DNA from: an uncultured Bacilli bacterium
GTDB taxonomy: Bacteria > Bacillota_I > Bacilli_A > RF39 > UBA660
Direction: 5' to 3'
DNA length: 39,301 nucleotides
NCBI GenBank assembly: GCA_947586825.1
Contig: CANPXU010000010.1
Location: 1-39,301 of the forward strand
Shown: positions 15,254 to 33,355 of the stretch, piece after piece
Layout: every line of letters begins with the position of its first letter
How positions within the stretch are numbered: the stretch's first letter is position 1
Made by a program: the position numbers and the translations under genes
The notes under the pieces: model-generated
Database searches by the model: none
The model's input: only the letters and a program-made list of their open reading frames with translations
Told to the model about the DNA's origin: nothing

Positions 15254-15685
15254 ATGAAAAAAACTATAAAATATTTTGCTTTATTTATAGCTCTATTTTT
15301 AATAGCAATTCCATGTGCTTATGCTGCAAGTGCTTCAAAAAGCTATGTGGTATGTCATGATGCAAATGTTTTAAAAGGAATTAGAGTATTAGGCTACGTT
15401 GTGATGGCTTTAAAAATTTTGGCTCCGATTATTTTAATTATCATGGGTATGTATAGCTTTTTTAAAGCAACATTGGATGACGATGACAAAGCTACTAAAG
15501 AAGCCGCTAGATTATTATTTACTAAGTTTTGTGTAGCAGCAGGCATATTCTTTATTCCTACGATTATAAATGCAACTTTAAAATTAGTAAGTAACTATGA
15601 TAAAACAAATAATAAATATACCGAGTGTATGAAATGTATTACGTCGATTAAAGAATGTAACAATTTAATAACAAGATATAAGTAA
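15254..15685 (+). CDS. VirB2/TrbC-like pilin protein A
   Basis: 143 residues. Signal peptide 1 to about 25 (AYAAS), then two hydrophobic helices (about 42-67 and 92-112) around a short charged cytosolic loop (KATLDDDDKATKEAAR). That is the two-helix hairpin layout of VirB2 pilins, and gene order with VirB6, PrgI and VirB4 supports it. Extra features are an N-terminal C-H-D and a C-terminal Cys-rich segment (CMKCITSIKEC) that could form disulfides outside the cell. It shares spacing and motifs with the next gene. It has its own promoter and an AGGAAGG ribosome site. Confidence 0.75.
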   Translation: MKKTIKYFALFIALFLIAIPCAYAASASKSYVVCHDANVLKGIRVLGYVVMALKILAPIILIIMGMYSFFKATLDDDDKATKEAARLLFTKFCVAAGIFFIPTIINATLKLVSNYDKTNNKYTECMKCITSIKECNNLITRYK

Positions 15686-15691
15686 TAAATG

Positions 15692-15721
15692 TTTGTGATT
15701 ATTCACAAATGATAGTATAAT
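15692..15721 (+). promoter_or_regulatory. Promoter with an inverted repeat over the -35: probable operator of the T4SS operon
   Basis: TTTGTGA (15692-15698) and TCACAAA (15703-15709) form a perfect 7-base inverted repeat with a 4-base centre. Its left arm contains a TTGTGA -35, 17 bases before a perfect TATAAT (15716-15721). An inverted repeat without a following T-run, sitting on the -35, suggests a repressor site rather than a terminator. A second TATACT lies at 15728-15733. Confidence 0.5.
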
Positions 15722-15747
15722 TATTGTTATACTAGAGAGGTTTAGAT

Positions 15748-16152
15748 ATGAAAAAAGGTTTAGTAATTCTAGTGTTAGCATTATCCTTTTTTGGCTTTGT
15801 TTCTCTTGTAAGAGCCGACTCTGTAGGAAGCAGTGCTATTATCTCTTTAGCAGGAGATAATTCTCAAAATTGCAAGGCTTTATTTGGTGACCCTAATAAA
15901 GCAGGGGATTTTGCTTATTATTTACAAATAATTTTGGATGTTATCAAATATGCCGGAATTGTTCTTTGTATTGTTCTATCTGTTGTTGATTGGTTCAAGG
16001 CTCTACTTGGAGAAGACAAAGAAATGTATAAACCTCTTGCCAAGAAAATGGCTGCAAGAGTATTTTATGCTGTAGGTTTATGGTTTTTACCCGCGATAGT
16101 AAAGACACTACTTACATTACTAGATGTGTATGGAACATGTGGTATAGGATAG
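15748..16152 (+). CDS. VirB2/TrbC-like pilin protein B
   Basis: 134 residues. Signal peptide to about 23 (VRADS), then helices about 50-75 and 98-122 around a charged loop (KALLGEDKEMYKPLAKKMAAR). It aligns with the previous protein over the hairpin (both have an FKA motif before the acidic loop and FxPxIxxxxL in helix 2), so the two are paralogues. Two single Cys (N and C terminal) flank the hairpin. First gene of a continuous operon: 14 bases to the VirB6-like gene. Two pilin-type subunits in one system suggest a mixed fibre or a major and minor subunit; this is inference. Confidence 0.75.
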   Translation: MKKGLVILVLALSFFGFVSLVRADSVGSSAIISLAGDNSQNCKALFGDPNKAGDFAYYLQIILDVIKYAGIVLCIVLSVVDWFKALLGEDKEMYKPLAKKMAARVFYAVGLWFLPAIVKTLLTLLDVYGTCGIG

Positions 16153-16166
16153 GGTGAAGATAGCAT

Positions 16167-18314
16167 ATGTTTGATTTTATTCCTGAATTTTTCTGGAAAA
16201 TAATTATTTCTTTAGTTGGTGCTATATTCCAATTGGTAAATTATACTTACCAAGTCTTTTTGTTTTTAGCAGAAACTAATATTTTTGATCAAAGTATTTA
16301 TCATGATCTTACCGATAAGATATATGTTATTTTAGGTGTAGTTATGCTATTTGTAATAGCGTATAACATTTTAACTTTAGTAATTGATCCTGACAAAAAT
16401 GAAAAAGGTGCTACTATTGAAAAAATATTAAAAAACTTAGTAACATCCTTTATTATGATTATCATTTGTCCATCGATTTTCAATTTTGCATTTAGAGTTC
16501 AAAATTCAATATTAAGTACAAATGGAGGAATTATTACTAATTTCTTCTCCGATTCTATGCAAGATACAGGTGGTGCCGATAGTATAAAAGCTGGAGGAAG
16601 GAGAATGGCCGTTAATACATTTAAAGCATTCTTCGTACCAACTAGTGAAAACTATGGAATTGGCAGCAAGAGTGGTAATAGAAGTTATAAGCTTCCAGAT
16701 GGTACTATTATTGATTGTAGTAGCAGTTGTACTTTATCACAAGCCGAAAAGGCTGCGTTAGAACTCGGCTCTTTTGGCCCATTTAATTCATTTGCAATGA
16801 ATATTGTTAAAGATGAAGTTGAATTTAACTGGTTAATAGCTCTTATTGCAGGAGGCTATCTAGTTTATGTTATAGTTTCATTCTGTTTTGATTTGGCAGT
16901 TAGGGCGTGTAAGCTAGCTTTGTATCAGATTATTGCTCCTATAGCGATAGCTTGTCGTATTATCCCTAATCAAGAAGAAATATTTAGCAAATGGTTAAAA
17001 GCTGTTACTAAAACTTTCTTAGCTGTTTTTATACGAATAATTATTATGAATTTAGGAGTCTTTTTAATATCCGTATTTATTGAAAGTGATTTCTTCTCTG
17101 GATGTTCAGATTGTTCATTCGGAGTTAAATTAATTGGTTATGCTTTTATAATTTTAGGTATTGTTACCTTTATTAAACAAGCTCCAAAACTTATTGATGA
17201 TTTATTTGGCTTAGGAGAAGATGTAAGCCTAGGAATTAAAGATAAACTTAAGAACGCTAGCGTATTTACCGCAGGAGCCGCAATCGGAGCTGGTACAACA
17301 GCAATGGTTAGAAATGCAGGACACGCTATAAGCAATGTTAAAAATGCTAAAGGTGCAGGTGGAAAAGCTTATGCTTTAGGTCGAGGCGTTCTTAGTACTT
17401 TTGCAGGTGCTGGTTCAGGTCTTTATCATGGTTATAGACAAGGTGCTAATGCAGGAAACTTTACTGAAATGTCTGCTGCGGCCGGCAAAGGCGCTACTGC
17501 TACTACAGATGCAAGAGATACTCGTGAAGCAAGAAAGGACAGATACAAGGCTGCTCATCAAAATGTTGTTACAGGTCATTTATCCGATTGGAGAGCCGAT
17601 GTTAGAGATTGGGCAACTGGAGGCGCTGCAGAATATGAGGGTATCATTAAAGTTGCAGATCAATTTAAGAAATCACAAGATGATATGAATTCTGAAGCAG
17701 AAAAAGTTATGAATAAATTTAAAAATAATGTTAGCTTAAGAGCAGATATGTCTCTACATGATTTTCATGATAATCAAGCTTTAAAAAATTATTTTGATCA
17801 ATATGCTGCAGCTGGAGCATCTTTAGGTGCTATAGAAAGTGATATAAATCGGTTAAAAAATGTTACTGATACAGCTGAAATGGCAAGAGATTTGGGAATT
17901 GAGCGATCAGCATATGCATCTGATGCAGAATACAATGCAGCTTTAGCTACTGTTCCGGCAAGATTTGCTCAAAAAATTGCCGATTTGGATAGTATGTATA
18001 ATCAACTTTGGAAGAAATCTAGACTTAAAGTCGAAGATGCAGCAATGCATCCTAATGATGCCACTTATGCCATAACTGGTCTTGAGGCAAAAGACTTAGC
18101 TGCCACTAGAGCTAAAAGTGAAGAATTTAATGCTTTATATCAAGCTCATGGTGCTAACGTAAAAGATAAAGATGGTAATACTCTTAATACTAATACGGCT
18201 AAAGGTATTGATGATATAGCTGGCAAATACCAAGAAGAAGGTGCTGAAGCTAGAAGACAATCTGCTCGTGTAAGACAACAAGCTGAAGCTAGAAAAGGCG
18301 ATAGCAATAAATAA
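16167..18314 (+). CDS. VirB6/TrbL-like polytopic channel protein
   Basis: 715 residues. Membrane helices at about 10-35, 50-72, 86-108, 218-262, 280-306 and 320-345 with a soluble loop (about 109-215) after the third helix: the VirB6/TrbL pattern. The later helices carry the amphipathic R-A-C-K-L-A...QIIAPIAI segment typical of TrbL/VirB6. The last ~370 residues are soluble: an Ala/Gly-rich portion (about 372-440) and then coiled-coil helices rich in Ala/Asp/Lys, ending in KGDSNK. The tail is much longer than in VirB6 and may reach the VirB4/VirD4 ATPases in the cytosol. It is 15 bases upstream of the PrgI gene. Confidence 0.82.
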   Translation: MFDFIPEFFWKIIISLVGAIFQLVNYTYQVFLFLAETNIFDQSIYHDLTDKIYVILGVVMLFVIAYNILTLVIDPDKNEKGATIEKILKNLVTSFIMIIICPSIFNFAFRVQNSILSTNGGIITNFFSDSMQDTGGADSIKAGGRRMAVNTFKAFFVPTSENYGIGSKSGNRSYKLPDGTIIDCSSSCTLSQAEKAALELGSFGPFNSFAMNIVKDEVEFNWLIALIAGGYLVYVIVSFCFDLAVRACKLALYQIIAPIAIACRIIPNQEEIFSKWLKAVTKTFLAVFIRIIIMNLGVFLISVFIESDFFSGCSDCSFGVKLIGYAFIILGIVTFIKQAPKLIDDLFGLGEDVSLGIKDKLKNASVFTAGAAIGAGTTAMVRNAGHAISNVKNAKGAGGKAYALGRGVLSTFAGAGSGLYHGYRQGANAGNFTEMSAAAGKGATATTDARDTREARKDRYKAAHQNVVTGHLSDWRADVRDWATGGAAEYEGIIKVADQFKKSQDDMNSEAEKVMNKFKNNVSLRADMSLHDFHDNQALKNYFDQYAAAGASLGAIESDINRLKNVTDTAEMARDLGIERSAYASDAEYNAALATVPARFAQKIADLDSMYNQLWKKSRLKVEDAAMHPNDATYAITGLEAKDLAATRAKSEEFNALYQAHGANVKDKDGNTLNTNTAKGIDDIAGKYQEEGAEARRQSARVRQQAEARKGDSNK

Positions 18315-18329
18315 AAAGGAGGATAATTT

Positions 18330-18653
18330 GTGAATAATAATTATTTGGTTCCGGCTAATAGTAAAAAGTCCAAATTAATATTAGGCTTTTTTACTGTACC
18401 GGACTTGATAGTGTGTGGTATTGGCGGAGGACTTACACTCATGCTTTTAGTAATAATTCGTGACCCAGCAACATGGCAGCTTGTGTTAATGAGTTTACCT
18501 CTTTTGACAGCTGCTACTCTGGTTTTCCCTCTTGCAAATTATCACAACGTAAGACAATTATTAATAAATATATTTAATTTTGCCTTTGGCAGAAAAAAAT
18601 ATTATTGGAGAGGTTGGTGTGTGAAATATTACTATGACCCAAACAACAAATAA
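18330..18653 (+). CDS. PrgI-family conjugation membrane protein
   Basis: 107 residues. GTG start at 18330 with an excellent AAGGAGG site 8 bases upstream; no other start fits. The VPANSKKSK start, FFTVPDL, two membrane helices (about 25-47 and 52-68), and the C-terminal FGRKKYYWRG stretch are the PrgI/TcpE pattern. PrgI proteins are small inner-membrane parts of Gram-positive T4SS, nearly always just before VirB4, as here. The 3' end overlaps the next gene by 20 bases. Confidence 0.88.
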   Translation: MNNNYLVPANSKKSKLILGFFTVPDLIVCGIGGGLTLMLLVIIRDPATWQLVLMSLPLLTAATLVFPLANYHNVRQLLINIFNFAFGRKKYYWRGWCVKYYYDPNNK

Positions 18654-19200
18654 TAATCAAAATAGTGGTTCAAAATATGCTGAAGATTGGCTACCTATAA
18701 GAGATATAGCCAATGGTATGATTTATACCGATGATAAGTACTACGTTACAGGAGTAAAAATTAGCCCTCGTAATATCTTTATCTTGGACCAAAATTCACA
18801 AAATAATATCTTATATGAACTTGCTAATTTTTATAATACTATTGATTTTGAATTCTGGCTTTTAATAGCAGATAGACCTGTTGATATTGATGTATATCTT
18901 GCGACTCTTCAAGTACAATATAATCAAATCCAAAATGCTGCAATGCGAAAACTAATTATGCAAGATATTAATAAAGCTAATATGTTTATGTCTAGACAAT
19001 ATAGTGTTGTTGATACTGAATATTATATTTTATTTAAAGAAAAAAGAATGGAACTTGTTCAAAAGAAGATACACAATTTAATAAGTGGTCTTGCAAGCGC
19101 AGGATTACAATCTACACAAACAAGTAACAGTGATTTAAGAATGATTTTAGATAACTATCTAAATGATGGACAAAATACAGAGTTTGGGGCGGTGATGTAA
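18634..19200 (+). CDS. VirB4/TraE N-terminal domain as a separate protein
   Basis: 188 residues, matching the first part of TraE/VirB4-type ATPases: the DWLPIRDI opening, FILD, FEFWLLIADRPVDID, the YxxLFKEKR loop and a late helical end. No Walker motif is present; these lie in the next gene. The stop TAA is followed by a single T and then the ATG of the second part, so the two are made from one mRNA in near-equal amounts, probably by reinitiation. The start is inside the PrgI gene and has no strong ribosome site of its own, so it depends on upstream translation. Confidence 0.82.
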   Translation: MTQTTNNNQNSGSKYAEDWLPIRDIANGMIYTDDKYYVTGVKISPRNIFILDQNSQNNILYELANFYNTIDFEFWLLIADRPVDIDVYLATLQVQYNQIQNAAMRKLIMQDINKANMFMSRQYSVVDTEYYILFKEKRMELVQKKIHNLISGLASAGLQSTQTSNSDLRMILDNYLNDGQNTEFGAVM

Positions 19201-19201
19201 T

Positions 19202-20995
19202 ATGGCAAATGATCAAATAAAAAGTGAAGTAGCTCCAAAAGGAATGTACTTTAAACCTACCGAGTTTATGCTTGGAGGAACTTATTATACAATTATGACA
19301 ATTGTATCTTATCCAAGAAATATATTCCCTGGTTATTTAGCAGGTATTACTAATATGGAAGGCGTAAGACTTGCTATTAAACATATTCCTATTTCTTTTG
19401 AGATACTTAAGAAAATGCTTAATAAAGAAATCGCAGATTTAAAGTCTAGATATCAATCTGAAAAAGATCAAACAACCCAAGAAAAAATAAGACAAGACTA
19501 TGAATCTCTAGAGCAATTTATATCATTCTTAGCTTCAACACAAGCAAGAATCTTTGATTTCCAAATGCACATTATGATTTCTGGTGATAATAAAGAAGAG
19601 CTAGAACTTAGAAAGATGCAAGTTAGAAATTACTTGGATGCCTTAGGAATGAGAGGCGTATCTTTAATGTTTGAACAAGAAAAAGCCTTAAAGAGTATTA
19701 TTCCTATATTCCCTGCCCAAGATATTGAAGATAGAGTAGGTATTCCACTTCCATCTGTTACTTTAGCAGGTATGTATCCATTTGTATTTGATAGTATAAA
19801 AGACCCAGGTAATGGTACTCTTCTTGGTATTGATGCATCTGGTGGAGTTGTATTATTTAACCAATTCTTATATCAAGAAAAGAAGGAAAATAACCGTAAT
19901 AATGCCAATATGATTATTCTTGGTACTTCTGGTTCAGGTAAATCAACAGCTGCGAAATTAATGCTTAGAACTCATCTTAGAAATGGCCTAAAATGTGTAT
20001 GTATCGACCCTGAAGGCGAGCTTGAAGACTTAGTTAACTTCGTTCATGGTGATTTCTTAAGCCTTGGTAAAGGTGGAGAGTTTGGTATGATTAACCCTCT
20101 TGAAATCGTAAGTGATAGTGATGATGAAGAGATTTCCCAAGGCCTTGGTTATACTGTTTTAACTAGAGCTTTACAACAAGTTAAAGCTTTCATGAAATAC
20201 TATAATCCTTCGATTGAAGAAGATGTTCTTACATTATTCTCTGAAGTTTTACAAGATACTTATAAGAGATTTAAAATAGATTTCAATACTGATTTTACTA
20301 AACTTACTAGTGCTGATTTCCCTACATTTGATGATGTATATGCTACTATCAAGGGAAGACTATTATCTATGACAAATGCTACTCATGAAAGAGATATCAT
20401 GGAAAGACTAGAGCTTAAGATAAGACCTTTAGTAAAAGAATTAAGATACTATTTCACAGGTAAGACTACTCTTCAAATAGATAGTGATTTTATTGTATTT
20501 AATATAAGAGAACTTATGAATAGTGATGAAAATATTAAGAATGCTTTATTCTTTAATATATTAAAATATGCATGGGGCTTATGTTTGGATAAAGACATTA
20601 ATACTGTCATGATGGTTGATGAAGCCCATGTTCTATTATCTAATCATAATGAACTTGGTGCTGAATTCTTAGCTCAAATCCAAAGAAGATCTCGTAAGTA
20701 CAATACTGGTACTATTATAATAACTCAACAACCTACAGACTTCGCAGCTCCAAATCTAATAATGCATGGTAAAGCTATATTTGATAATGCTTCTTATTAC
20801 TTAGTAATGGGTCTTCGTAAACAAGCAGTTGAAGATTTATCTAAACTTGTTGATTTAAATGATAATGAAAAAGAAGCTATTAAATACTATAATCAAGGAG
20901 ATGCTCTATTTATATGTGGTAATCGAAGAATGAATATGAGGGTTGTAGCTACCCAAGAAGAATTAGATTCACTTGGTAGTGGTGGAGGACTATAA
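19202..20995 (+). CDS. VirB4/TraE ATPase, C-terminal part
   Basis: 597 residues. Residues 1-230 hold the second half of the VirB4 N-terminal domain (SYPRNIFPGYL, IKHIPISF). The RecA-like motor follows: Walker A GTSGSGKS (241-248), Walker B VDEAH (D473, E474) and a TQQPTDF segment (about 507-513). It is the secretion and assembly ATPase of the T4SS, docked on the inner membrane. With the preceding 188-residue ORF it makes a full-size VirB4 (785 residues together). Downstream is the wall hydrolase, 30 bases away. The boundary falls in a linker between the two N-terminal subdomains. Confidence 0.92.
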   Translation: MANDQIKSEVAPKGMYFKPTEFMLGGTYYTIMTIVSYPRNIFPGYLAGITNMEGVRLAIKHIPISFEILKKMLNKEIADLKSRYQSEKDQTTQEKIRQDYESLEQFISFLASTQARIFDFQMHIMISGDNKEELELRKMQVRNYLDALGMRGVSLMFEQEKALKSIIPIFPAQDIEDRVGIPLPSVTLAGMYPFVFDSIKDPGNGTLLGIDASGGVVLFNQFLYQEKKENNRNNANMIILGTSGSGKSTAAKLMLRTHLRNGLKCVCIDPEGELEDLVNFVHGDFLSLGKGGEFGMINPLEIVSDSDDEEISQGLGYTVLTRALQQVKAFMKYYNPSIEEDVLTLFSEVLQDTYKRFKIDFNTDFTKLTSADFPTFDDVYATIKGRLLSMTNATHERDIMERLELKIRPLVKELRYYFTGKTTLQIDSDFIVFNIRELMNSDENIKNALFFNILKYAWGLCLDKDINTVMMVDEAHVLLSNHNELGAEFLAQIQRRSRKYNTGTIIITQQPTDFAAPNLIMHGKAIFDNASYYLVMGLRKQAVEDLSKLVDLNDNEKEAIKYYNQGDALFICGNRRMNMRVVATQEELDSLGSGGGL

Positions 20996-21025
20996 TAATT
21001 TGAATTAGTAAGGTGGTGATGAGTT

Positions 21026-23632
21026 TTGAATCCTAAAAATGGGCAAGAAGTACAGCAAAATACTGCAAATGTGGGGATAAATCAACCTAAAAAAGATTTA
21101 AGAAACCCTGATTCAAGCTCACCAACTATTGATGTTGAAGTTCAAATTAAATCCCAAAAAAGAGGTAAAGGAGTTCCTTCTTCAACGAGAATTATCGACG
21201 ATAACTCACCCTATAGAGCAAATGGTAGTACTCTAGATGATGATTCTATAGAAGTCGAAGAGGAAGAAATCCCCGAAGTACAAGAAGAATCCCCAAGTTG
21301 GGAACAATTAACTAAAGAAAAATATGCTGAAGCTGCAGAAAAAGCTAAGCAAACAAATAAAAAAGTAGCCAAGACAGCTGTTAAAGGAGTGGCTACTTAT
21401 TTTGGTGGACCAGCAGGAGAAGCTATTGCGGATACAGCCAATAATTCTGGCGTTTTGGATCCGGTATATGATAAAATCGCGGATACATCAGCTAAAGTAA
21501 TGGATTCAAATCCTTTAGCTCGCCAAGTTCAAAATAAACTTAATGAGGCTGATGACTCTGGTGCTTTAGATGCTGCTGATAGTGCTATAAGTATGATTGG
21601 CGGTAATGCCCCTTCTGCTACTAAAGCTGCTACGCAAGCAACTGGTGCTGCTAAGGCAGGAGCTCAAGCTAGCACTGAGGCTGCAAATGCAACTTCGAAT
21701 GCTACCAGTACTACGGCAAGAAGTCCTAGGATGGGCGGTAATAGGCAAACACCTAATGCTGGTGCTCCTGAAGATACTGCAGCAAAAACTGGTGATACTG
21801 CTAGCCCTGATACAGGTGGCAAACAAAAAGCTACATCTGATAATAAAAAACAAGCAGCTAACCGAGTAAGCGAAGCTATTCAAAAAAAGAAAGAGAAGAA
21901 AGAAAAAGAAAAGAAAAAGGGGCGCTTAATTAACTTCCTTAGAAGTAATCCTACACTTGTTGTCATTTTACTTGCCGCTGGGTTATTAGCTTTATTATTT
22001 ATTTTACTTATGGCTTTGCTTTTAGGAGAAGGCGGGGTACTTGAAAACTATGATTCAATGACTTCTAACCTGGATGATAGATATGATTTTACAAAAACAA
22101 ATGTTACTTTAACTAATTCTTATACTAATGAACAAGATCGGGTACAAATTCAGGAATTGATGCTTGAAGATTTAATAAAAGGTGCAGCTTATGCGGAACT
22201 ATATAATAGTTTGTCAGGTTTGACTAGAGAACAAATGGTAGAACTATTCTCTTCGAATATGGTAGTTTTTAGAGCTTTAGCTCTTAATATTGGTAAGTAT
22301 GATAGTACTACTAAAAGTATAGAAATACAAAGTGGTGACAAAGGTGTTCCATATTGTGATATTACAAATGGTTGTGATATTGTCTCTAGTAATGGTTTAA
22401 TAACATACTTAATAAGTTCTTATAATGGTACTTTAAAAGGTAGCGTTACAAGTTCAATACCTCCAGCAAGTGGCGATGTTTTAATGGCTTTAACGGAAGC
22501 CTATGCCAATACAGCATATTTAATTTTAGTTCCTAATACATTTGATGGAGTTTTAACTAGTTATAATTTTGGTAATCCACCATATAATCAAACAATTAGA
22601 CAAAATATGGTTACTAAAGCTAAGAATAACAAAAAATACGATACAATTATTAAAGAAATTAGTGATTATAATAATTATAAAATATATGATTTAAAAAGCG
22701 CTGTAATGTCTTATAGTTATGGTAGCAGTAATAATTATTGGTGGCCAATTGGTGGCAGTCAAGATAGTTCAGGCCTTTATAGTGGTACAACATCATGGAC
22801 GAGTATATCATCACCATATGGATCAAGAATCCATCCTATAAGTGGAAAACAATCGTTCCACTCCGGAATCGATATACCGGCATCACAAGGTACGCCTATA
22901 ATTGCTACAAGGTCAGGTACGGTAACAATAGCTACCTATAATAGTAGTTATGGTAATTATGTTGAAATAAACCATGGTGATGGTACCTCATCAAGGTATG
23001 CTCATATGATGAATGGTGGTATACTTGTTAAAGTAGGAGATACCGTAAGACAGGGGCAAATCATTGGTAAAGTTGGTACAACTGGAGCATCAACAGGTAA
23101 TCACTTACATTTTGAAATAAGAATTGATGGTCAAACAACTAATCCGACAGAATACGTTAGTGCTCAAAATCAAAGGCCAAAGGAAATTACTACTGTTGTT
23201 GGTGTTAAGGGATCAAATAATACTCAATCAGTATGTTTGACCTTAAAAAATGCGGGATTTTCTAATAATGCAGTTGCGGCAATAATGTCGAATATGTATC
23301 GTGAAAGTAACTTTAAACTAACAGCTTTAGGTGACCATGGTACAAGTTATGGATTATGTCAATGGCATAATGGTAGATATACTAATTTGCGAAATTATTG
23401 TGGCAGTAGATTAAATACGGTTGAATGTCAAATTGATTTCTTAATATATGAACTTAAAAATTCTTATAAAGGAGTATATAATTATTTATTATCGAATAAT
23501 AGTGCTAATAGTATGACATCTTATTTCTGTATTCACTTTGAAAGCCCTGCGAATAAGTATGTAGGATGTCCACAAAGAGCTAATTCATATAGTGCATCAT
23601 ATTTAAATTATGTTAATAATGGATGTAGATAA
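21026..23632 (+). CDS. VirB1-like bifunctional wall hydrolase: M23 peptidase plus tail-lysozyme domain
   Basis: 868 residues; TTG start at 21026 with AAGGTGGTGA 6 bases before it (an ATG nearby is out of frame). A long cytosolic N-terminus (about 1-300) is acidic, then Ala/Thr-rich, then a KEKKEKEKKK stretch. One TM segment (about 310-332) follows. Outside: a helical spacer, LytM/M23 domain (about 600-710; H612, D616, H660, H693 and H695 of HLHFE), then a phage-tail-lysozyme-like domain (about 728-868) with probable catalytic E760 in YRESNF. It cuts both stem peptides and glycan to let the T4SS pass the wall. Cys in the outer domains may pair. Confidence 0.92.
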   Translation: MNPKNGQEVQQNTANVGINQPKKDLRNPDSSSPTIDVEVQIKSQKRGKGVPSSTRIIDDNSPYRANGSTLDDDSIEVEEEEIPEVQEESPSWEQLTKEKYAEAAEKAKQTNKKVAKTAVKGVATYFGGPAGEAIADTANNSGVLDPVYDKIADTSAKVMDSNPLARQVQNKLNEADDSGALDAADSAISMIGGNAPSATKAATQATGAAKAGAQASTEAANATSNATSTTARSPRMGGNRQTPNAGAPEDTAAKTGDTASPDTGGKQKATSDNKKQAANRVSEAIQKKKEKKEKEKKKGRLINFLRSNPTLVVILLAAGLLALLFILLMALLLGEGGVLENYDSMTSNLDDRYDFTKTNVTLTNSYTNEQDRVQIQELMLEDLIKGAAYAELYNSLSGLTREQMVELFSSNMVVFRALALNIGKYDSTTKSIEIQSGDKGVPYCDITNGCDIVSSNGLITYLISSYNGTLKGSVTSSIPPASGDVLMALTEAYANTAYLILVPNTFDGVLTSYNFGNPPYNQTIRQNMVTKAKNNKKYDTIIKEISDYNNYKIYDLKSAVMSYSYGSSNNYWWPIGGSQDSSGLYSGTTSWTSISSPYGSRIHPISGKQSFHSGIDIPASQGTPIIATRSGTVTIATYNSSYGNYVEINHGDGTSSRYAHMMNGGILVKVGDTVRQGQIIGKVGTTGASTGNHLHFEIRIDGQTTNPTEYVSAQNQRPKEITTVVGVKGSNNTQSVCLTLKNAGFSNNAVAAIMSNMYRESNFKLTALGDHGTSYGLCQWHNGRYTNLRNYCGSRLNTVECQIDFLIYELKNSYKGVYNYLLSNNSANSMTSYFCIHFESPANKYVGCPQRANSYSASYLNYVNNGCR

Positions 23633-23641
23633 GGAGGATTT

Positions 23642-24622
23642 ATGCGAAACGATAAAGTATATATTGCTGTTTTAGCAGTAATTGCTATTCTACTTGGAGT
23701 TTTGGTTTTTGCTTATTTTAATATTTCTAAGAACGAAGGATTTGGCTTAGGAAATAGTAGTTCTGAAAATAGTAATATTAATAAAAATACGACTACTAAT
23801 CAAGAAAATGGTGGATCAAAACCGATTGGCGAAATAACGAGTCTACCAGTAGATCCTCATGAAAAAATTCCTCTAGCAGAGGTTACTGACTATACAGAAT
23901 TTTTCAATGTTAACAATATTCTAAATATGTTTTATAGTTTAGTAGCTAATCGAAATAGTAAGAGTATTATCAATGTTTTTGATGCCGACTATATTGAAAA
24001 GAATAATATAACAGTAGATAACTTAACTCAGTATGTAAATAGTAAATATGATGAGATAACTTTCTATTCTAAAGAAATGTATCGTAAAGGCCAAAATGGG
24101 GTTAGATATTATTTTGTTAGAGGAGAACTTCAAAACTATAATTTTGCTTCTGAAATATTATCTGAAGCTGAAAATGTAAGTATTTTAGTAATAATTGACT
24201 TTAATAATGACTGCTTTAGCATAGTCCCAATTGCTAACGAAGGCGATTTATATGAGTTTGCTCAAGGTTATAATATTAATACGGCTAAGAGGCTAACAAG
24301 AAATGAAAATAATGATTATAATGAACAAACATATAATGATGAAATAATAAGTATTAACTATATAAGATATTTCCAAAATATGCTTTATTTAAATACTGCT
24401 AAAGCATATGATATGTTATCTGATGAAACAAAAGCTAAATACCCAAAACTTGAGAACTTCTCTGATGATTTGGAAAATGTTTATAGTGGAATAACTTCAA
24501 GAATTCAAAGCTATGGTACCAAAGGTGATAATGGCCATAGAATGTATTCGATTATCATGAATAATGATAAAGAAATTATTTTCAATGAAGAATCTATAAT
24601 GAATTTTAAAGTTACACTTTAA
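23642..24622 (+). CDS. Membrane-anchored VirB8/TcpC-like protein
   Basis: 326 residues. One N-terminal TM (about 8-27), a Ser/Asn/Thr linker of about 50 residues, then two alpha/beta regions (about 85-195 and 230-326) that each start with long helices (ILNMFYSLVANRNSKSIINV and RYFQNMLYLNTAKAYDML) and continue in strands, as in NTF2-like repeats. Gram-positive T4SS use VirB8-like proteins (TcpC) with this layout, and this gene ends the operon after VirB4 and the wall hydrolase. Assignment is by architecture and context. GGAGG lies before the ATG. Confidence 0.7.
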   Translation: MRNDKVYIAVLAVIAILLGVLVFAYFNISKNEGFGLGNSSSENSNINKNTTTNQENGGSKPIGEITSLPVDPHEKIPLAEVTDYTEFFNVNNILNMFYSLVANRNSKSIINVFDADYIEKNNITVDNLTQYVNSKYDEITFYSKEMYRKGQNGVRYYFVRGELQNYNFASEILSEAENVSILVIIDFNNDCFSIVPIANEGDLYEFAQGYNINTAKRLTRNENNDYNEQTYNDEIISINYIRYFQNMLYLNTAKAYDMLSDETKAKYPKLENFSDDLENVYSGITSRIQSYGTKGDNGHRMYSIIMNNDKEIIFNEESIMNFKVTL

Positions 24623-24624
24623 CG

Positions 24625-24647
24625 AGCCATTTTTTATGGCTTTTTTT
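24625..24647 (+). terminator. Rho-independent terminator of the T4SS operon
   Basis: AGCCAT (24625-24630), TTTTT loop, ATGGCT (24636-24641), then T7. It ends the operon running from the pilin gene at 15748 to the VirB8-like gene. Confidence 0.85.
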
Positions 24648-24681
24648 GTTTCTTTTTGTAGTAGTATCACGATAATTGTAG

Positions 24682-24687
24682 TATAAT
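24682..24687 (+). promoter_or_regulatory. -10 box of the VirD4 gene
   Basis: Perfect TATAAT with a G-T-A lead, 24 bases before the ATG, followed by an AAAGGAG ribosome site. The -35 is not clear. Confidence 0.5.
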
Positions 24688-24711
24688 AAAAAAGAGTTTA
24701 AAGGAGAAGAC

Positions 24712-27171
24712 ATGGGTTTTAAAGTAACAAAAAAAGATTTATTACTATTTTGTTTATATTGTATCTTGCTACTTTATTTTTGCGCAATTGCTGTTTTAAA
24801 TTTTGCGTCTTTTTCTAATGATGGAACCTTTTATGGCTTACTTCCTTTTAAAGCTTTTTCATTTGAATATATAGGTTATACTTTAGCTTTATTTGTAGCG
24901 GTTTTAATATTAATATTCTCAAGTGTATCTTCTTATATTTTTAATAAAGATAAGGGATCATTTGGTATTCATATTGGTGATAAGGGTAGTGATGGTTACT
25001 CTAAATGGGCTAGTGAAAAAGATATTAAGACCGATAAAAATATTGTTAGAGTAGTGCCTTCGGACAAAACTTTGGAGGCTGCGGGTATTCCTCTTATCAA
25101 TAAAGGTAATGAGATATGGGTAGATAATGGAGAATATCATAACCTAGTAATCGGAGCTACTGGTTCAGGTAAAACAGAGTGTGTCGTTAAGCCTCTTGTT
25201 AACTTACTTTCTAAAAAAGGCGAAAGTATGGTTATTACTGACCCTAAAGGTGAAATATATGAATATTGTGGCGAATATTTAAGAAGCCAAGGATATCGAA
25301 TTATTATTCTTAACTTCCGTGAACCTGAAAAAGGTAATGCTTGGAACCCTTTGAGTCTTCCATACCAATATTATAAATCTGGTAATACCGATAAAGGTAT
25401 TGAACTTCTAGATGACGTTGCTCTTAATATTTTGTACAACAAAGATGGTGGTAAAGATAGTGAATTCTGGGAAAAGAGTGCAGCTGACTACTTCTCAGGT
25501 CTTGCTTTAGGTCTATTCATGGATGCTAAAGAAAAAGAAGTTAACTTAAATAGTATTAACATAATGTCAACAGTCGGAGATGAAAGAAGAGGAACAACTC
25601 CTTATATTAAAGAGTATTTCCATTTAAAAGGTGAAAGCTCTGCTCCTTATATTTTTGCCTCTAATACAATTAATGCTCCCAATGATACTAAGGGTGGTAT
25701 CTTATCAACATTTAGACAAAAGATAAGACTTTTCTCAACCAGAGAAAGTTTAAGTGAAATGCTTTCATATTCTGATTTTGATATGCGGGATATAGGTAAA
25801 CAAAAAACAGCCGTTTTCATGATTATTCATGATGAAAAGAAAACATATCATGGTCTTATGACTATTTTTGTTAAACAATGTTATGAAACCTTAATTGATT
25901 GTGCGCAAAAAAATGGTGGTAAACTTGAATATCGTACTAACTTCATTCTTGATGAGTTCCCTAACATGCCACCACTTAAAGATGTTGACTCCATGGTTAC
26001 AGCAGCTCGTAGTAGGGATATAAGATTTACCTTTATTATCCAAAACTTTGCCCAATTAGATGATGTATATGGAGAAGAAGTTGCTCAAGTTATTAAAGGT
26101 AACTGTGGTAATTTAATATACCTAATTTCTACTGAACTTAAAGCTTTGGAAGAAATCAGTAAAATGTGTGGTGAAGTAAAGTCTAAGAAAGATGATAAGA
26201 CGGCATCAACACCACTTATAACGGTATCAGACTTACAAAAATTAAAATTATTCCAAGCTATAATTATCAGATGGCGTAAAAATCCATTTAAAACTCAACT
26301 TACACCAGACTTTAAAATAGACTGGGGTACCAATTATGGTAAAGCAACACTTCCTACGAGAGAAAAACAACCAATTGAAATATTTGATATTAAGGCTTTT
26401 GTTAATGAGCAAATGAAAGATCAAGCGCTTAATAATCCAGGTATGAAAGCACCAGGAGCTAACCCTTTCTTACAACCAGGATATAATCCATTCTTACAAA
26501 ATAGTGCTCCAAGAAATCCTTTTGTATCTGATACACCAAAACCTGGTACAAGCAATCCATTTTTAAATTCTACCCCATCTTCTAATCCAACAAATCCATT
26601 AATGGGTAGTAATCCGGCGCTTAATGCGAATAATCCATTTATGAATAATAATTCTACTCCAATGATGAATAATCCATTTGTTAATAATCAACCATCTCAA
26701 ACTCCAAGTGTGCCTACACCGGCTTCAAATAACACACTTAATACTAATCCGTTTGCAAATAATGGCTTTAATCCATATGCTAATTTAACCAATAAAGATA
26801 TTGACGATATGGTTAAGAATATTGAAAAGAAACTTGCTCAACTTGATGCCGAAGAAGCTGCGGAAAAGGCTAAACAAGAACAAGAAAAAACTAAGATTAC
26901 CGATGTTGAATCTAAATTGGAACTGCCAAAAACGACTGAACCTGAAATAAAAACTATTTTTGAACCTGAAGTTAAGGATGAAGATTTAACTTTTGCTCAA
27001 TCTGAAGTAAAAAAAGAAACAGCAAAGGATGATGCTCTAGATTTAACTCAAGAAATTAAGCTTGATGATATATCTAAACCCAAAATTAATGTTGATAAAG
27101 ATAGTGTGATTGTAAATGATAACGTAGTGACGGATGATGAATTTTATGATGATTTCTTTGATGATGAATAA
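24712..27171 (+). CDS. VirD4/TcpA-type T4SS coupling ATPase with an NPF-rich tail
   Basis: 819 residues. Two N-terminal TM helices (about 7-30 and 46-70), then the TraG/VirD4 motor: Walker A GATGSGKT (148-155), ITDPKGEIYEYCG, Walker B LDEFPNMPP (D414, E415) and FIIQNFAQL. These proteins select and hand substrates to the T4SS. The catalytic core ends at about residue 560; the last 260 residues are disordered: about seven NPF triplets plus NPL/NPY (about 580-690), then an acidic Lys/Glu region ending DDDFFDDE-like (exact end DEFYDDFFDDE). The tail likely binds substrates or partners. It is a separate transcript from the main operon. Confidence 0.93.
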   Translation: MGFKVTKKDLLLFCLYCILLLYFCAIAVLNFASFSNDGTFYGLLPFKAFSFEYIGYTLALFVAVLILIFSSVSSYIFNKDKGSFGIHIGDKGSDGYSKWASEKDIKTDKNIVRVVPSDKTLEAAGIPLINKGNEIWVDNGEYHNLVIGATGSGKTECVVKPLVNLLSKKGESMVITDPKGEIYEYCGEYLRSQGYRIIILNFREPEKGNAWNPLSLPYQYYKSGNTDKGIELLDDVALNILYNKDGGKDSEFWEKSAADYFSGLALGLFMDAKEKEVNLNSINIMSTVGDERRGTTPYIKEYFHLKGESSAPYIFASNTINAPNDTKGGILSTFRQKIRLFSTRESLSEMLSYSDFDMRDIGKQKTAVFMIIHDEKKTYHGLMTIFVKQCYETLIDCAQKNGGKLEYRTNFILDEFPNMPPLKDVDSMVTAARSRDIRFTFIIQNFAQLDDVYGEEVAQVIKGNCGNLIYLISTELKALEEISKMCGEVKSKKDDKTASTPLITVSDLQKLKLFQAIIIRWRKNPFKTQLTPDFKIDWGTNYGKATLPTREKQPIEIFDIKAFVNEQMKDQALNNPGMKAPGANPFLQPGYNPFLQNSAPRNPFVSDTPKPGTSNPFLNSTPSSNPTNPLMGSNPALNANNPFMNNNSTPMMNNPFVNNQPSQTPSVPTPASNNTLNTNPFANNGFNPYANLTNKDIDDMVKNIEKKLAQLDAEEAAEKAKQEQEKTKITDVESKLELPKTTEPEIKTIFEPEVKDEDLTFAQSEVKKETAKDDALDLTQEIKLDDISKPKINVDKDSVIVNDNVVTDDEFYDDFFDDE

Positions 27172-27284: not shown

Positions 27285-27773
27285 ATGAAAAGAAAAAAAG
27301 CTAAAGATAAGCATATTCTTATTATATCTATTGTACTTAGCGTACTAGCGCTAGTATCAGTACTATTTTGTTTATTTTATGCTTATAAATATTATAATTA
27401 TCCTGAAAGAAAAGTTGTGCACTGTTACTTACAAAACGATTCAGAGAATTTAGATGTGTACTACACAATACAGGGTGGAAAGGTCTTAAGGAAAGAGGAA
27501 GTTAGAACTTATCCATACTCTGGAGATTTGTATAATAAATTAAGTCAAGACTTTGATGATAGCAAAACTAGTAAATATTTAGGCTATATGCAAAAGCTTA
27601 CAAATTATAATAATCAGATAGTTAAGATGGAACTCATTGATTATGAAAGACTAAGCGATGAAGGATTTAAGGATTTATTTGGTATAACTGATAAAGATAA
27701 ATATTTAACTGCTGATGAAGAGTTTTATGCATCGGGATATAATGAAGCAGGTTTTACCTGCGATATAAAGTAA
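27285..27773 (+). CDS. Single-pass membrane protein, paralogue 1
   Basis: 162 residues. Very basic start (MKRKKAKDKH), one TM (about 11-35), outer domain of about 125 residues containing VVHCYLQND early and FTCDIK at the very end, so the two Cys could form a disulfide. The next gene has the same design (HCYYYFD near the start, HCDWDAF at the end), with an intervening pattern of a glycine turn, Y/K-rich helix and a D-rich segment. Family not recognised. GAGGG ribosome site. Position right after VirD4 but on a separate transcript. Confidence 0.75.
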   Translation: MKRKKAKDKHILIISIVLSVLALVSVLFCLFYAYKYYNYPERKVVHCYLQNDSENLDVYYTIQGGKVLRKEEVRTYPYSGDLYNKLSQDFDDSKTSKYLGYMQKLTNYNNQIVKMELIDYERLSDEGFKDLFGITDKDKYLTADEEFYASGYNEAGFTCDIK

Positions 27774-27782
27774 GGGGTTCCT

Positions 27783-28274
27783 ATGAAAAATAATATTAAA
27801 ATAATAGTTCCTTTAATCTTAATAGTTTTATCCTTAACAGTAGGTAGTATTTATGCATATGCATTTTATAACAAACCAATGGGTGAAAGTATTCACTGTT
27901 ATTACTATTTTGATGGTTCAAGAGCAGATGATTATTACTATTTAGAAGATGGATATTTAAAAAGTGCCTATCATGTTTTTAATCTTTTGTATCCTATGGA
28001 TCAAGATAAAGCATATAAGCTTACTAATAAAATGAATGATGATTATAAATGGCAATTATATAATATAGCCCAAGATGGAGAAAATGTGACGGAAACATCA
28101 TATTTTGTTTATGATATGACAAAAGATGTTGATCCAATGGATTTAAATCCTATGATTAAAATGGATGAAGGAAAAAGACTTACTAAAAAAGATTTTGAAT
28201 TTGCTTTTAAATATATAGGCAATGGTAGAAAAGATAATGGAATGAAATATCATTGTGATTGGGATGCTTTTTAA
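27783..28274 (+). CDS. Single-pass membrane protein, paralogue 2
   Basis: 163 residues, 9 bases after the previous gene, so co-transcribed. TM about 7-27, then an outer domain that starts HCYYYFDGS and ends YHCDWDAF, matching the Cys placement of its neighbour. It is rich in Tyr and Asp. A tandem duplication of one ancestral gene is the simplest explanation; sequence identity outside the ends is low. AAGGGG precedes the ATG. Function unknown. Confidence 0.75.
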   Translation: MKNNIKIIVPLILIVLSLTVGSIYAYAFYNKPMGESIHCYYYFDGSRADDYYYLEDGYLKSAYHVFNLLYPMDQDKAYKLTNKMNDDYKWQLYNIAQDGENVTETSYFVYDMTKDVDPMDLNPMIKMDEGKRLTKKDFEFAFKYIGNGRKDNGMKYHCDWDAF

Positions 28275-29864: not shown

Positions 29865-29904
29865 GCTATCAAGAGGATAATATCCAAGTAATGATAGCTT
29901 TTTT
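29863..29904 (+). terminator. Terminator between convergent genes
   Basis: AAGCTATC (29863-29870) pairs with GATAGCTT (29893-29900) over 8 bp, followed by T6. Its loop holds the last codons and stop of the minus-strand Cys-rich gene. Confidence 0.75.
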
Positions 29905-30567
29905 AATTTCATAATATTCATTTTCTTCAAACTGCATATTAGCTATGCAAAAACGTTTGTTACTAATATGGGAGCAGAACATACATTCATATAAATTAGA
30001 ACAATCTTGGATAAAAAATGAATTAGTAATTTTGCTTGAACATACAACATTATAACTATTAGCACAATTACTGGAATCATCGGTTCTGATACAATAATTG
30101 CATAATGCTGACCTTTGTGATGCTAAAACATTATTACATTTATGACAAGAATCACAAAAAATAATATTTTTAGAATCACTACTATCACTTGAGGCATACA
30201 CATTTTCACAGCGATATATCGTATCACTTTTAGCTACATTTATTGAATCGTATACTCTTTCGGTAGTTATTAAATTAACTTTATCCCATATAGCAAGTAT
30301 TTCATCTAAAGAAGTTATTTTTTTATAAGGTAACATCCAACCATCACTTAGATCTACTTTTTCCATATTACTATTTGTTATATATTTAGATCCATTAGAA
30401 GATGATGCATAAGTTATTTCGTTAGTAGTAGCATCGACTACTTCTTTAGGTAATTTAATATCAAAGGCCAGTTTCTCATATATATCTTTTAAATGCCAAT
30501 TTATATCCTGATTAAATATCATTTTAAAGATATTTTTACACATATTTAAAGCTTCATTATCATTCAT
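29869..30567 (-). CDS. Cys-rich repeat protein, unknown, coupled to the HerA/VirB4-like ATPase
   Basis: 232 residues, 13 Cys. Residues 1-115 are mixed and contain LPYKKITSLDEILAIWDK. From about 117 onward short repeats of the type x-C-x-N-[VIS]-x-x-S stack up (RCENVYASS, CDSCHKCNNV, NCANSYNVVCSS, DCSNLYECMFCS), ending in NKRFCIANMQFEENEYYE. This suggests a right-handed beta-helix with metal sites. I associate that ending with uncharacterised proteins from candidate-phylum bacteria and phages, unverified. The ATG lies 1 base after the stop of the ATPase gene, so they are coupled. It ends in TGA followed directly by an in-frame TAG. Confidence 0.75.
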   Translation of the reverse strand: MNDNEALNMCKNIFKMIFNQDINWHLKDIYEKLAFDIKLPKEVVDATTNEITYASSSNGSKYITNSNMEKVDLSDGWMLPYKKITSLDEILAIWDKVNLITTERVYDSINVAKSDTIYRCENVYASSDSSDSKNIIFCDSCHKCNNVLASQRSALCNYCIRTDDSSNCANSYNVVCSSKITNSFFIQDCSNLYECMFCSHISNKRFCIANMQFEENEYYEIKKAIITWILSS

Positions 30568-30568
30568 A

Positions 30569-32416
30569 CTATATTTCCTTTCTACTAGTCGAATTCTTCC
30601 TTAAAATGTCTTTTAAACTAGTTTTAGCACCTGTATTAAACACGATATTAGTATTTGTATTTTTATCAATGTATTTAGTTACTTCTTTAGAAACACTTCT
30701 TAAACTAGGTTTACTTATATAATCTAAAGTAGTACCCGTTATAGTAGGTAGTAATTTACCATCTTTTTCAATTCTTACAATACAACTTCGATTAGGAAGT
30801 TCAGAAAGCATTTTAACTTTTTTATCTTTGTTATTATCTAAAGGAATTTTCATATCTATATTATCTACTAAAACATTAGCATCTATTTTAGCTACTCTAA
30901 ATAAATAATAATTACTTACATTAGCAAATATGGCATCTTTTAATTCATCAGATATTTGATTAAAATATTGTCCTGATAGGATTAAAGATAAATTATATTT
31001 TCTAGCTTCAGATAAGAACTTACATAAGATAGGATTTTCTACAATAGCAACTTCATCTACCACTAAGATAATATGTTCATTATTTTTTCTAGCTTGAATA
31101 ATATTTAAGATATTTTGCATAACTAAACCAGATATAGTTTTAGTTATCTTATCTCCTAGTTTAGTTCTATCCAAAGAAAACAAAGTAACAGTATTATTAC
31201 AAATAGTTTCATATAAACTAGAGTATTTTTCTAAGCTGTTAAAGACAGGTATCATACTCATTTCATCAATAAAACTTATAATCGGAGATATACTTTCAGA
31301 ATATGATTTAGTTTTAAGTTCATTAAAATCGCTTAAGAAGAATTCTATAACACAAATAGGTACATTATTTTTGCTAGCATTAATCATATTATTACGATAA
31401 TCTAAATCTAATAATAATTTTCTTAAATTAGTAAAGTTAAATGAATCAAGACTTAATAATAAATAGGTACTAAATCTTAAAACTCTTTCTAGTTTAGCAT
31501 TATATTGATCACTTATTAAGGATTTAAATAAATCTAGGTAAATCTCAGTTTCAGCAACTATATCATTATTAAAAGAGCCAAATAAATTAATAGAGCTATC
31601 ATTATTATTAAAATCAATTATTTTACTAAAACCCCCGATATCATCTTGAAGAGAAGCATGAGGGTCTATAACAATTACTCGATAATTATTCTTTAATATA
31701 TTATCTTGATTAATATTATTAATAAGTAGACTAATTAATTTAGATTTACCAGAACCACTTGCTCCTAAGATAACAGAGTGTTTATTAAAACTATAATTAT
31801 ATAAATTTAAGTAATAATCTTCATTTAAATAAGGAAATGTATTTATTTTTAATAAAGCATTATCTTTATTTTCACTTAATACATTTAAACATTTACTAAT
31901 ATCTAAATATTTAGGAATAGCTTTATATTCATATCTTTTATTTCCTTCGAAGTCTATTGATAATAATGAAGATATACTAGTAAGCAATGCTCTATATTTA
32001 ATTATTTCATTATTATAAGAAGTATAAATATTAACTTGTCTTTTTATTCTTTTACCAATACCTTTACTAAGTTTAATCTCTATATATTGTAAGTCACCTT
32101 TATTTTTAATTTCAAAGTTATTAATTATATCAATAATATTACTTTCATTAATCATAAGATATGGTAAAGTTATATCTTCTTTAGGTAATACTATATCACT
32201 AGTTTTCTCCAGTAAAAATGAATTTAAATCATTAATAGTAGCCGGTAAATTATATTTAGTTTTAATATAAAATCTAATCTTATTTAACTCTTTAGTAATT
32301 ATTAATGAGAAATTAGTAAATATACCTGTGTATTTAATTATTTTATTAATTAAATTAAACAAATCTTCTTTTTGAACATATTTTTTAGCTAGATATATTT
32401 CATAATACTTTTCCAT
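30569..32416 (-). CDS. HerA/VirB4-like T4SS-type ATPase
   Basis: 615 residues from the internal ATG at 32416. The first ATG (32428) starts a GGAGGGG stretch that is the ribosome site for the second. The N-terminal 200 residues are a mixed alpha/beta region. Then the motor: Walker A GASGSGKS (218-225) after HSVILG, VIVIDPHASL, Walker B LVVDEVA (D454, E455) and LILSGQYFNQ. The C-terminal region ends in a Ser/Arg tail. It is distinct from both T4SS ATPases in the main cluster, lacks TM helices and is coupled to the Cys-rich gene. It may pump DNA or protein, or be a HerA-type motor of a defence or phage-derived system. Confidence 0.85.
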   Translation of the reverse strand: MEKYYEIYLAKKYVQKEDLFNLINKIIKYTGIFTNFSLIITKELNKIRFYIKTKYNLPATINDLNSFLLEKTSDIVLPKEDITLPYLMINESNIIDIINNFEIKNKGDLQYIEIKLSKGIGKRIKRQVNIYTSYNNEIIKYRALLTSISSLLSIDFEGNKRYEYKAIPKYLDISKCLNVLSENKDNALLKINTFPYLNEDYYLNLYNYSFNKHSVILGASGSGKSKLISLLINNINQDNILKNNYRVIVIDPHASLQDDIGGFSKIIDFNNNDSSINLFGSFNNDIVAETEIYLDLFKSLISDQYNAKLERVLRFSTYLLLSLDSFNFTNLRKLLLDLDYRNNMINASKNNVPICVIEFFLSDFNELKTKSYSESISPIISFIDEMSMIPVFNSLEKYSSLYETICNNTVTLFSLDRTKLGDKITKTISGLVMQNILNIIQARKNNEHIILVVDEVAIVENPILCKFLSEARKYNLSLILSGQYFNQISDELKDAIFANVSNYYLFRVAKIDANVLVDNIDMKIPLDNNKDKKVKMLSELPNRSCIVRIEKDGKLLPTITGTTLDYISKPSLRSVSKEVTKYIDKNTNTNIVFNTGAKTSLKDILRKNSTSRKEI

Positions 32417-32452
32417 AAACCCCTCCATGACAATAAGTCTAGCATATTACTA

Positions 32453-32493
32453 CATAAAAAAACTGACTTTTTTCTTACGAGTTTTGTCAGTTA
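32453..32493 (-). terminator. Terminator after the AraC-type gene
   Basis: On the minus strand AACTGAC and GTCAGTT pair across an 18-base loop and are followed by T7. It includes the stop of the regulator gene. Confidence 0.75.
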
Positions 32494-33285
32494 ATCAATA
32501 GCTACTAAAAAGTCTGTTACTCCGTCATGATAATATTCAAGTTCAGGAATAGGCTTTAAATTATAATTACATGAGGGAAGAAAGCTTAAATAAAAGTCTT
32601 GGGATGCATTGTGAATATCTGTAGCATTTTGGGAAGGTATTCTAAAAGATAACCATCTTGATTTAGGTAAAATAACTTTTTCAAATTCTTTTATTTTTTG
32701 TTTATATAAAACATAATAGTACTGACAGTTTTCTCTTTCTTCATCATAAGTAACCATGCCATAGTCAATTTTCCCATATTTATTTAAGTATTTATTAGAT
32801 ACTTTTTGATAGAAGTAAGGAGCATCTTTTGCAATTTTATCATTATTAGTTTTCATTTTAAGTCCATATAATTCTAAAGAATCTAGTTCTATTATTTCAT
32901 ACTCAACTTCTTTAATAGCCATATCTTTTTCATCAAATATAACTCTAGGGAAATTTCTTAACTTAGTTAAATCTACTTTACTAGGCTTTATACCATGAAA
33001 TGATCTAAAGGCTCTCGAAAAAGCTGTAGCATTATTATATTGATACTTAATTGCTACATCAATAACTTTTAAATTAGGATTATTATATAAATCTAAAGCT
33101 GCTTTGGAAAGTCTTCTTTTACGAATATAATCAGATATAGTAGTTCCAACCATTAAAGAAAATAATCTTTGCATAGTATAAGAATTAACCCCGAGAAAAG
33201 ATGCTAAAACATCATAATCTATCTTATTTTCTAAATTATTTTCAATATAATTAGTTATTTCATTTAAGCCCTTATATATATTCAT
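32491..33285 (-). CDS. AraC-family regulator with GyrI-like effector domain
   Basis: 264 residues. N-terminal double HTH (about 5-105): LASFLGVNSYTMQRLFSLMVG and AFSRAFRSFHGIKPSK. C-terminal domain (about 108-264) has the GyrI/Bacterial-effector-binding pattern (EYEIIELDSLELYGLKMKT..., CQYYYVLY, LPKSRWLSFRIP, LEYYHDG), a pocket for small amphipathic molecules. Such proteins usually turn on drug-efflux genes. It is divergent from the Ppx-like gene; a TATAAT on the minus strand lies near 33300-33305. Confidence 0.92.
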   Translation of the reverse strand: MNIYKGLNEITNYIENNLENKIDYDVLASFLGVNSYTMQRLFSLMVGTTISDYIRKRRLSKAALDLYNNPNLKVIDVAIKYQYNNATAFSRAFRSFHGIKPSKVDLTKLRNFPRVIFDEKDMAIKEVEYEIIELDSLELYGLKMKTNNDKIAKDAPYFYQKVSNKYLNKYGKIDYGMVTYDEERENCQYYYVLYKQKIKEFEKVILPKSRWLSFRIPSQNATDIHNASQDFYLSFLPSCNYNLKPIPELEYYHDGVTDFLVAID

Positions 33286-33355
33286 AAAATCTCCATGATT
33301 ATTATAGCATGAAGTCCTAAAAAATGATAAGATATTGATAAAAGTAGGTGAGTTT

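Follow-up and report, generated by a model that had tools for sequence, protein, structure and literature searches.

Ring ATPases of the HerA type move DNA, and much current work on DNA repair and antiphage defense concerns HerA-type rings that have a single dedicated partner. The relatives of HerA, VirB4, and DndH whose substrates are known act mostly on DNA. The closest described systems include the HerA-NurA pair for DNA end resection, the HerA-SIR2 and HerA-DUF4297 pairs, the VirB4 and VirD4 (TrwB) ATPases of type IV secretion systems (T4SS), and, on the side of regulation, the drug-sensing regulators Rob and BmrR. GyrI-like domains are drug binding, and members protect against DNA-damaging agents (PMC5684135).

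The window, meaning the whole stretch of 39,301 nucleotides that was analyzed, comes from an uncultured Bacilli bacterium. A first-pass annotation had described within it a conserved two-gene unit encoding an ATPase and a cysteine-rich protein, and both open reading frames are present on the minus strand where they had been placed. The pair is conserved and has no known partner family, but the unit consists of three genes, the upstream regulator having been overlooked. The name CysR is used here for the 232-aa protein with 13 cysteines. The architecture of the cassette is well supported. A literature search did not find a description of it, and the three genes look like an undescribed stress-response or defense cassette. 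The order of the genes is regulator, then ATPase, then CysR, with the following features.

33301..33330, minus strand: predicted promoter of the regulator, TTATCA-N18-TATAAT with TG before the -10 box, from a promoter scan whose total was not above the shuffle background
32491..33285, minus strand: AraC-type regulator, 264 aa, with an HTH_18/AraC DNA-binding half and a Cass2/GyrI-like small-molecule-binding half
32463..32490, minus strand: operator-like element CTGAC-N18-GTCAG, then a T run, from conservation across loci
32436..32444, minus strand: extended -10 box TGCTAGACT of the ATPase-CysR unit, kept in relatives as TGnTATACT or TGnTATAAT
30569..32416, minus strand: HerA/VirB4-superfamily ATPase of predicted ring type, 615 aa, from DUF87 (2.1e-9), invariant motor residues, and AlphaFold and Foldseek
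29869..30567, minus strand: CysR, Cys-rich acidic protein, 232 aa, 13 Cys, an open reading frame with 92 family members aligned
29938..30261, minus strand: nine gap-free 12-residue repeats of CysR (residues 103 to 210), a predicted beta-solenoid, from periodicity and Cys/His conservation

The ATPase and its relatives

As in the first-pass annotation, position 32416 was preferred as the start of the ATPase over the mechanically called 32428, because orthologues begin near the motif M-x-x-x-E-I-Y-L and because ATGGAGGGG, read at 32428, resembles a Shine-Dalgarno sequence, so that an ATG there overlaps the likely ribosome-binding site. The reported 1-base gap between the ATPase and CysR genes was confirmed; in relatives the two genes mostly overlap by 1, 4, or 8 bases or are separated by a gap of 0 to 9. 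Such an overlapping or nearly touching junction across relatives is a mark of translational coupling.

The invariant residues of the ATPase are Walker A GxSGxGKSK, IDPHA, Walker B DE, QxFxQI, and the Arg in FR. In Pfam, the match to DUF87 is clear and above the cutoff, that to TrwB_AAD_bind is marginal (22.3 bits, cutoff 20.5), and there is no match to the CagE_TrbE_VirB N-domain or to T4SS-DNA_transf. A clear match to a VirD4 or VirB4 subfamily, which had been named as evidence against a new system, was sought among NCBIfam models, and the ATPase reached the cutoff of none, these subfamilies included. The claim that it is unrelated to the ATPases of the nearby T4SS holds at the family level, with alignment limited to the neighborhood of Walker A (38% over 48 aa for VirB4 and 24% over 51 aa for VirD4). 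The absence of membrane segments fits the hydropathy of both proteins (median maximum 19-residue Kyte-Doolittle value, 1.34 for the ATPase and 0.83 for CysR). The ATPase is basic, with a pI of 9.1.

The protein is laid out as an N-domain of about residues 1 to 165 without a Pfam match, the motor, and a variable C-terminal tail, and in its AlphaFold model (pLDDT 74) the N-domain is alpha/beta and the P-loop motor contains a helical insertion. When the model was compared with solved structures in Foldseek, HerA was best (2.6e-11), DndH-C reached a TM score of 0.64, and VirB4 reached at most 0.65 (target length). Over its whole length, the model aligned with HerA at a TM score of 0.37 and an rmsd of about 14, and Pfam gave no HAS-barrel match. 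The DUF87 match, the motor residues, and the HerA fold match bear out the earlier description of a HerA/VirB4-like motor at the level of the superfamily. By analogy with these relatives, the ATPase may form a hexameric ring that translocates along DNA, and membership in the superfamily points to DNA as the probable substrate.

The best viral fold matches were Bacillus phage G gp156 (3.4e-18) and its relatives, and the phrog_5156 profile matched the motor, up to 9.6e-21. In PADLOC, mad8 (2.9e-15) and several HerA models matched the ATPase, in the motor core only. NurA was not found in the genome's own assembly, which is 82% complete, and no NurA model was among the CysR matches. Outside the cassette, this genome encodes two further DUF87 proteins of about 600 aa (G000:C17:1190-1732 and G000:C6:3913-4398), and many relatives have distant matches of similar size.

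The upstream regulator and the operator-like element

The regulator matched HTH_18 (7.1e-17), Cass2 (4.9e-9), and GyrI-like (9.6e-7) in Pfam, all over the cutoff, and its closest NCBIfam model is RobA. Among the 64 testable loci, which are those with enough upstream DNA, it was found upstream of the ATPase in 54 (directly in 45 and with intervening open reading frames in 9) and was absent from 10. Across the 117 genomes searched, regulator orthologues of at least 50% identity occurred in pair-positive genomes only, and the pair-positive genomes without one were two, G009, in which the locus is cut by the contig end, and G048. Pairwise distances correlate between ATPase and CysR (r=0.92), ATPase and regulator (0.87), and CysR and regulator (0.87). 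By these comparisons, the regulator, ATPase, and CysR travel together.

Among the open reading frames between regulator and ATPase, a nitroreductase gene is the first intervening gene in four loci; others encode a DDE transposase or a transglutaminase-like protein. Nitroreductases often have xenobiotics as their substrates. In locus L061 (9277-10629, minus strand), where the DDE transposase gene separates regulator and ATPase, the operator-like element still precedes the ATPase. Locus L088 (~3300-4150) carries a partial duplication: a second copy of the 3' end of the regulator gene lies just ahead of the ATPase element, with an open reading frame of 118 aa in between.

The intergenic sequence between regulator and ATPase is AAACTGAC-AAAACTGATNNTTAAAAA-GTCAGTTTTTT, that is, inverted arms and an 18-base spacer. 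The spacer is N18 in 44 of the 45 aligned copies, and in 32 of 36 loci the distance from GTCAG to the downstream -10 hexamer is exactly 21 nt. The element was present in 49/56 regulator-bearing loci versus 0/11 regulator-less loci (Fisher p=2.5e-8, which overstates independence because the loci are related by descent). Where a gene is inserted between regulator and ATPase, the element stands before the inserted gene in L057, L119, and L124, before the ATPase in L061 and L088, and before both in L055 and L056. Because its distance from the -10 box is fixed at 21 nt, the element is likely a binding site for the regulator overlapping the -35 region, and the regulator may in this way control the ATPase-CysR promoter. 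The element can also fold as an RNA hairpin (z -1.81) followed by the T run, so a role as an intrinsic terminator of the regulator transcript is possible as well. A function as a terminator only is disfavored by the fixed N18, the fixed spacing to the -10 box, and the position before inserted genes. Upstream of the AraC gene itself, the conserved motif is mostly the ribosome-binding site region (12.9 bits versus 7.4 to 7.7 for shuffles; 58 loci).

CysR and the distribution of the pair

The 13 cysteines counted previously are real, and the family median is 13 (range, 8 to 15). The stacked C-x-N-[VI] repeats fared less well: repeats are present, but the strict motif fits two places (CENV and CNNV), and the true unit is 12 residues long, repeated nine times without gaps. 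At a lag of 12, the self-score of the CysR profile was -1.09 versus -2.35 (sd 0.20) for shuffled columns, a value unmatched in 300 shuffles, and there were secondary peaks at multiples of 6. Over 92 sequences, C168, C195, C198, H200, and C207 are invariant or nearly so, and several cysteines alternate with serine. This near invariance, with its conserved group C-x2-C-x-H-x6-C, suggests a C-terminal metal site. CysR is acidic (family pI median, 4.9), belongs to no Pfam, NCBIfam, or PADLOC family, and has no PDB relative by sequence. It is predicted to be a beta-solenoid; because the AlphaFold model, built from 12 sequences, has a pLDDT of 43.5, the solenoid and the metal site rest on periodicity and conservation.

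One phage profile, phrog_15341, matched CysR (best, 1.2e-6) and was dropped. It carries little weight because it also matches the antisense of collagen-like repeats in a 735-kb phage and 4 control genomes. A DNA pattern for the motif YCIxNKQY matched 7 viral contigs, in open reading frames unrelated to the cassette profiles, and a peptide probe modeled on a motif of candidate-phylum type gave no phage match.

The first-pass annotation had proposed co-occurrence as a check, and the two genes do occur together. ATPase (E<1e-130) and CysR homologues were found in the same 12 of 117 related genomes, adjacent and in the same order in all 12. A scan of GTDB species genomes gave 218 CysR relatives; among the best 80 of these, the ATPase was immediately upstream in 79, and the remaining locus sits at a contig end. 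Nearly all of these best 80 come from metagenome bins titled Bacilli, Tenericutes, Erysipelotrichaceae, Clostridia, or similar, many of gut or fecal source going by their titles. When 392 genomes from across the phylum were searched, the ATPase profile (E<=1e-15) matched this genome only, and CysR beyond this genome amounted to one same-family relic with stops and one chance match. Therefore, the pair looks obligate and largely confined to one family of small-genome bacteria. The relic (L145, genome G457) is a degenerate CysR gene interrupted by two in-frame stops, and no ATPase accompanies it at the threshold that was applied. The weak match in G134, taken as chance, coincides with what looks like a gene for a DNA-glycosylase-like protein.

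Within 11 genomes, ATPase distances correlated with those of CysR (r=0.89) and not with those of rpoB (r=0.07). For example, G007 and G050 have 79% identity in the ATPase and 85% in CysR versus 70% in rpoB, and G006 and G007 have 98% in rpoB versus 54% in the ATPase. Because cassette distances do not follow rpoB, the cassette probably moves horizontally as a unit, a conclusion that rests on metagenome bins. A gene beside the G007 cassette resembles G007's own genus, which argues against misbinning. Flanking genes vary between loci. The commonest Pfam families of 112 neighbors are acetyltransferases and ASCH, and these neighbors include no recurrent partner and no clear defense island, each PADLOC family shown matching one member. 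A cassette-free syntenic site was sought in the genus by way of the flanking genes, and no clean one was found.

Elsewhere in the window, positions 12491-27171 hold a type IV secretion locus, probably an integrative conjugative element. Its VirB4 (19202-20995) is closest to a Mycoplasma ICE model (5.1e-101, below the model cutoff), its VirD4 (24712-27171) is of the CD1115 family (over the cutoff), and it also encodes a TrbL-like protein and a protein combining an M23 peptidase with a phage-tail lysozyme. Beside the VirD4 gene, positions 27285-28274 encode two adjacent related proteins of 162 and 163 aa with an N-terminal hydrophobic segment; their genes are conserved in same-genus loci.

Function of the cassette and comparison with known systems

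We infer the function of the cassette from what is known of its parts. Given that GyrI-like domains bind drugs or are protective and that DNA is what HerA-type rings move, the simplest reading is a cassette that responds to toxins or xenobiotics and in which the ring motor acts on DNA with a metal-binding solenoid partner; we favor this reading tentatively. By analogy with characterized GyrI-like proteins, the regulator would bind a toxic or xenobiotic small molecule and then control the ATPase-CysR promoter. The ATPase would assemble as a hexameric ring and translocate along DNA, and CysR would dock on it as an adaptor or sensor. In this picture, CysR would be an acidic beta-solenoid that binds metal (Zn or Fe-S) and is produced in step with the basic motor. 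Motor and CysR together might protect or clear DNA during chemical attack; they might, for instance, strip or shield complexes of DNA or topoisomerase to which a drug has bound. The nitroreductase genes and the intact motor fold and catalytic residues speak for a toxin-responsive cassette; the 10 of 64 testable loci without a regulator nearby speak against it. A more ambitious joint claim is unlikely to hold in full, namely, that a drug-sensing AraC/GyrI regulator switches on a HerA-type ring and a metal-loaded 12-residue Cys beta-solenoid for ligand-induced genome protection, and that this would be a previously undescribed class, with a mechanism unlike efflux, target modification, or known HerA defense, spreading among gut Bacilli.

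The main rival is an antiphage or antiplasmid defense pair, comparable to HerA-SIR2 and HerA-DUF4297, in which the HerA-like ring would capture invading DNA with CysR as sensor or effector. We regard this as somewhat unlikely, but it is a serious rival because translocases of the HerA/FtsK kind are found repeatedly in systems that capture invaders (PMC12839542). The nearest solved structures to the motor are HerA rings, many of them from defense complexes, the PADLOC mad8 and HerA models match it, and the cassette is patchy and horizontally moving. However, CysR matches no effector family, whether nuclease, NADase, or other, the flanking genes are not clearly those of defense, and drug-type AraC/GyrI regulators are unusual for defense systems. 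Nor does the cassette correspond to a known PADLOC defense system, since the matches are to the ATPase core only and the neighbors include no recurrent defense partner. It is quite unlikely that the substrate is something other than DNA. In such a scheme, a metabolite would switch on the ring, which would either unfold or transport a protein or peptide or bring about the maturation of a metal cofactor, and CysR would be the metal carrier or the substrate. The Cys-rich partner with its invariant C/H cluster would suit such a function, and DNA as the substrate of the motor is a prediction from its superfamily, but no recurrent metallochaperone or peptidase partner lies nearby, and the DNA-acting habit of the characterized relatives also weighs against it.

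The position of the T4SS, a few kb from the cassette, and the distant superfamily relationship of its ATPases to the motor would suit an accessory part or substrate pump of that system. The cassette has T4SS genes beside it in syntenic loci of the same genus only, and the neighbors in other genomes are unrelated; a link to the T4SS is unsupported, and the neighboring T4SS is incidental to the cassette. The cassette also has the opposite orientation to the T4SS genes and lacks a membrane segment, and the proposed substrate pump is unsupported because there is no membrane partner, so a role in the T4SS is highly improbable. Derivation of the motor from a phage DNA packaging or injection motor, an earlier suggestion, is extremely improbable. 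In its favor are the phrog_5156 match and the viral fold match to gp156, which adjoins gp155, annotated as VirB-like (L154, Bacillus phage G 89194-93336). Against it, protein and profile scans of 2.9 million viral contigs, in which short seeds or single queries may miss very distant relatives, found no relative and no contig encoding the pair, and INPHARED tblastn, with the same limit for single queries, found none at E<=0.01. At a relaxed limit of E<=10, the CysR matches were due to chance and the ATPase matches were remote motors. CysR was absent beside distant motors in the stretches examined from phage G, a Microcystis phage, and a plasmid, and phage structural genes were not noticed around the cassettes.

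If the toxin-responsive reading is true, a mobile DNA-motor module that drugs can induce is present in some gut bacteria, and it would be a means of resistance or of coping with stress that differs from efflux and from enzymatic inactivation. CysR would be a partner of a new kind for HerA-type rings, under a drug-sensing type of regulator. Even if the cassette serves in defense, the regulator, operator-like element, and repeat protein make up a defined, testable system.

Beetle antifreeze proteins are beta-solenoids of 12-residue repeats, and the comparison of CysR with them rests on this. Pentapeptide-repeat proteins and the Knotted Solenoids resemble CysR in their short-period repeats, and the Knotted Solenoids also have conserved cysteines, there without disulfides (PMC13123833). 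CysR differs from known beta-solenoids in having no sequence relation in the PDB, a strict 12-residue unit, a terminal Cys/His cluster, and an added N-domain. The motor shares its superfamily (DUF87) with HerA-NurA, in contrast to which the cassette genome has no detected NurA at 82% completeness and the ATPase no HAS-barrel match. The ATPase resembles VirB4 and VirD4 (TrwB) in having a helical insertion in its P-loop motor (TM at most 0.65 for VirB4), but it lacks an NCBIfam-level T4SS subfamily, a VirB4 N-domain match, a membrane segment, and, outside one genus, a linked T4SS. Bacillus phage G gp156 and phrog_5156 are alike in the motor by profile and fold; they differ in a longer N-domain and in lying outside any AraC cassette, with CysR not nearby. 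HerA-SIR2 and HerA-DUF4297 (PDB 8wld, 8ziq, and others) likewise combine a HerA-type ring ATPase with one partner and are patchily distributed, whereas the cassette has a Cys-rich 12-residue-repeat partner without a known effector domain, AraC/GyrI control, and an ATPase N-terminal domain without a Pfam match. Finally, among the Rob- and BmrR-type drug-sensing regulators, which join an AraC- or MerR-type part to a GyrI-like domain, Rob has the architecture of the cassette regulator, but the predicted targets of the latter are a ring ATPase and a Cys-solenoid rather than an efflux pump.
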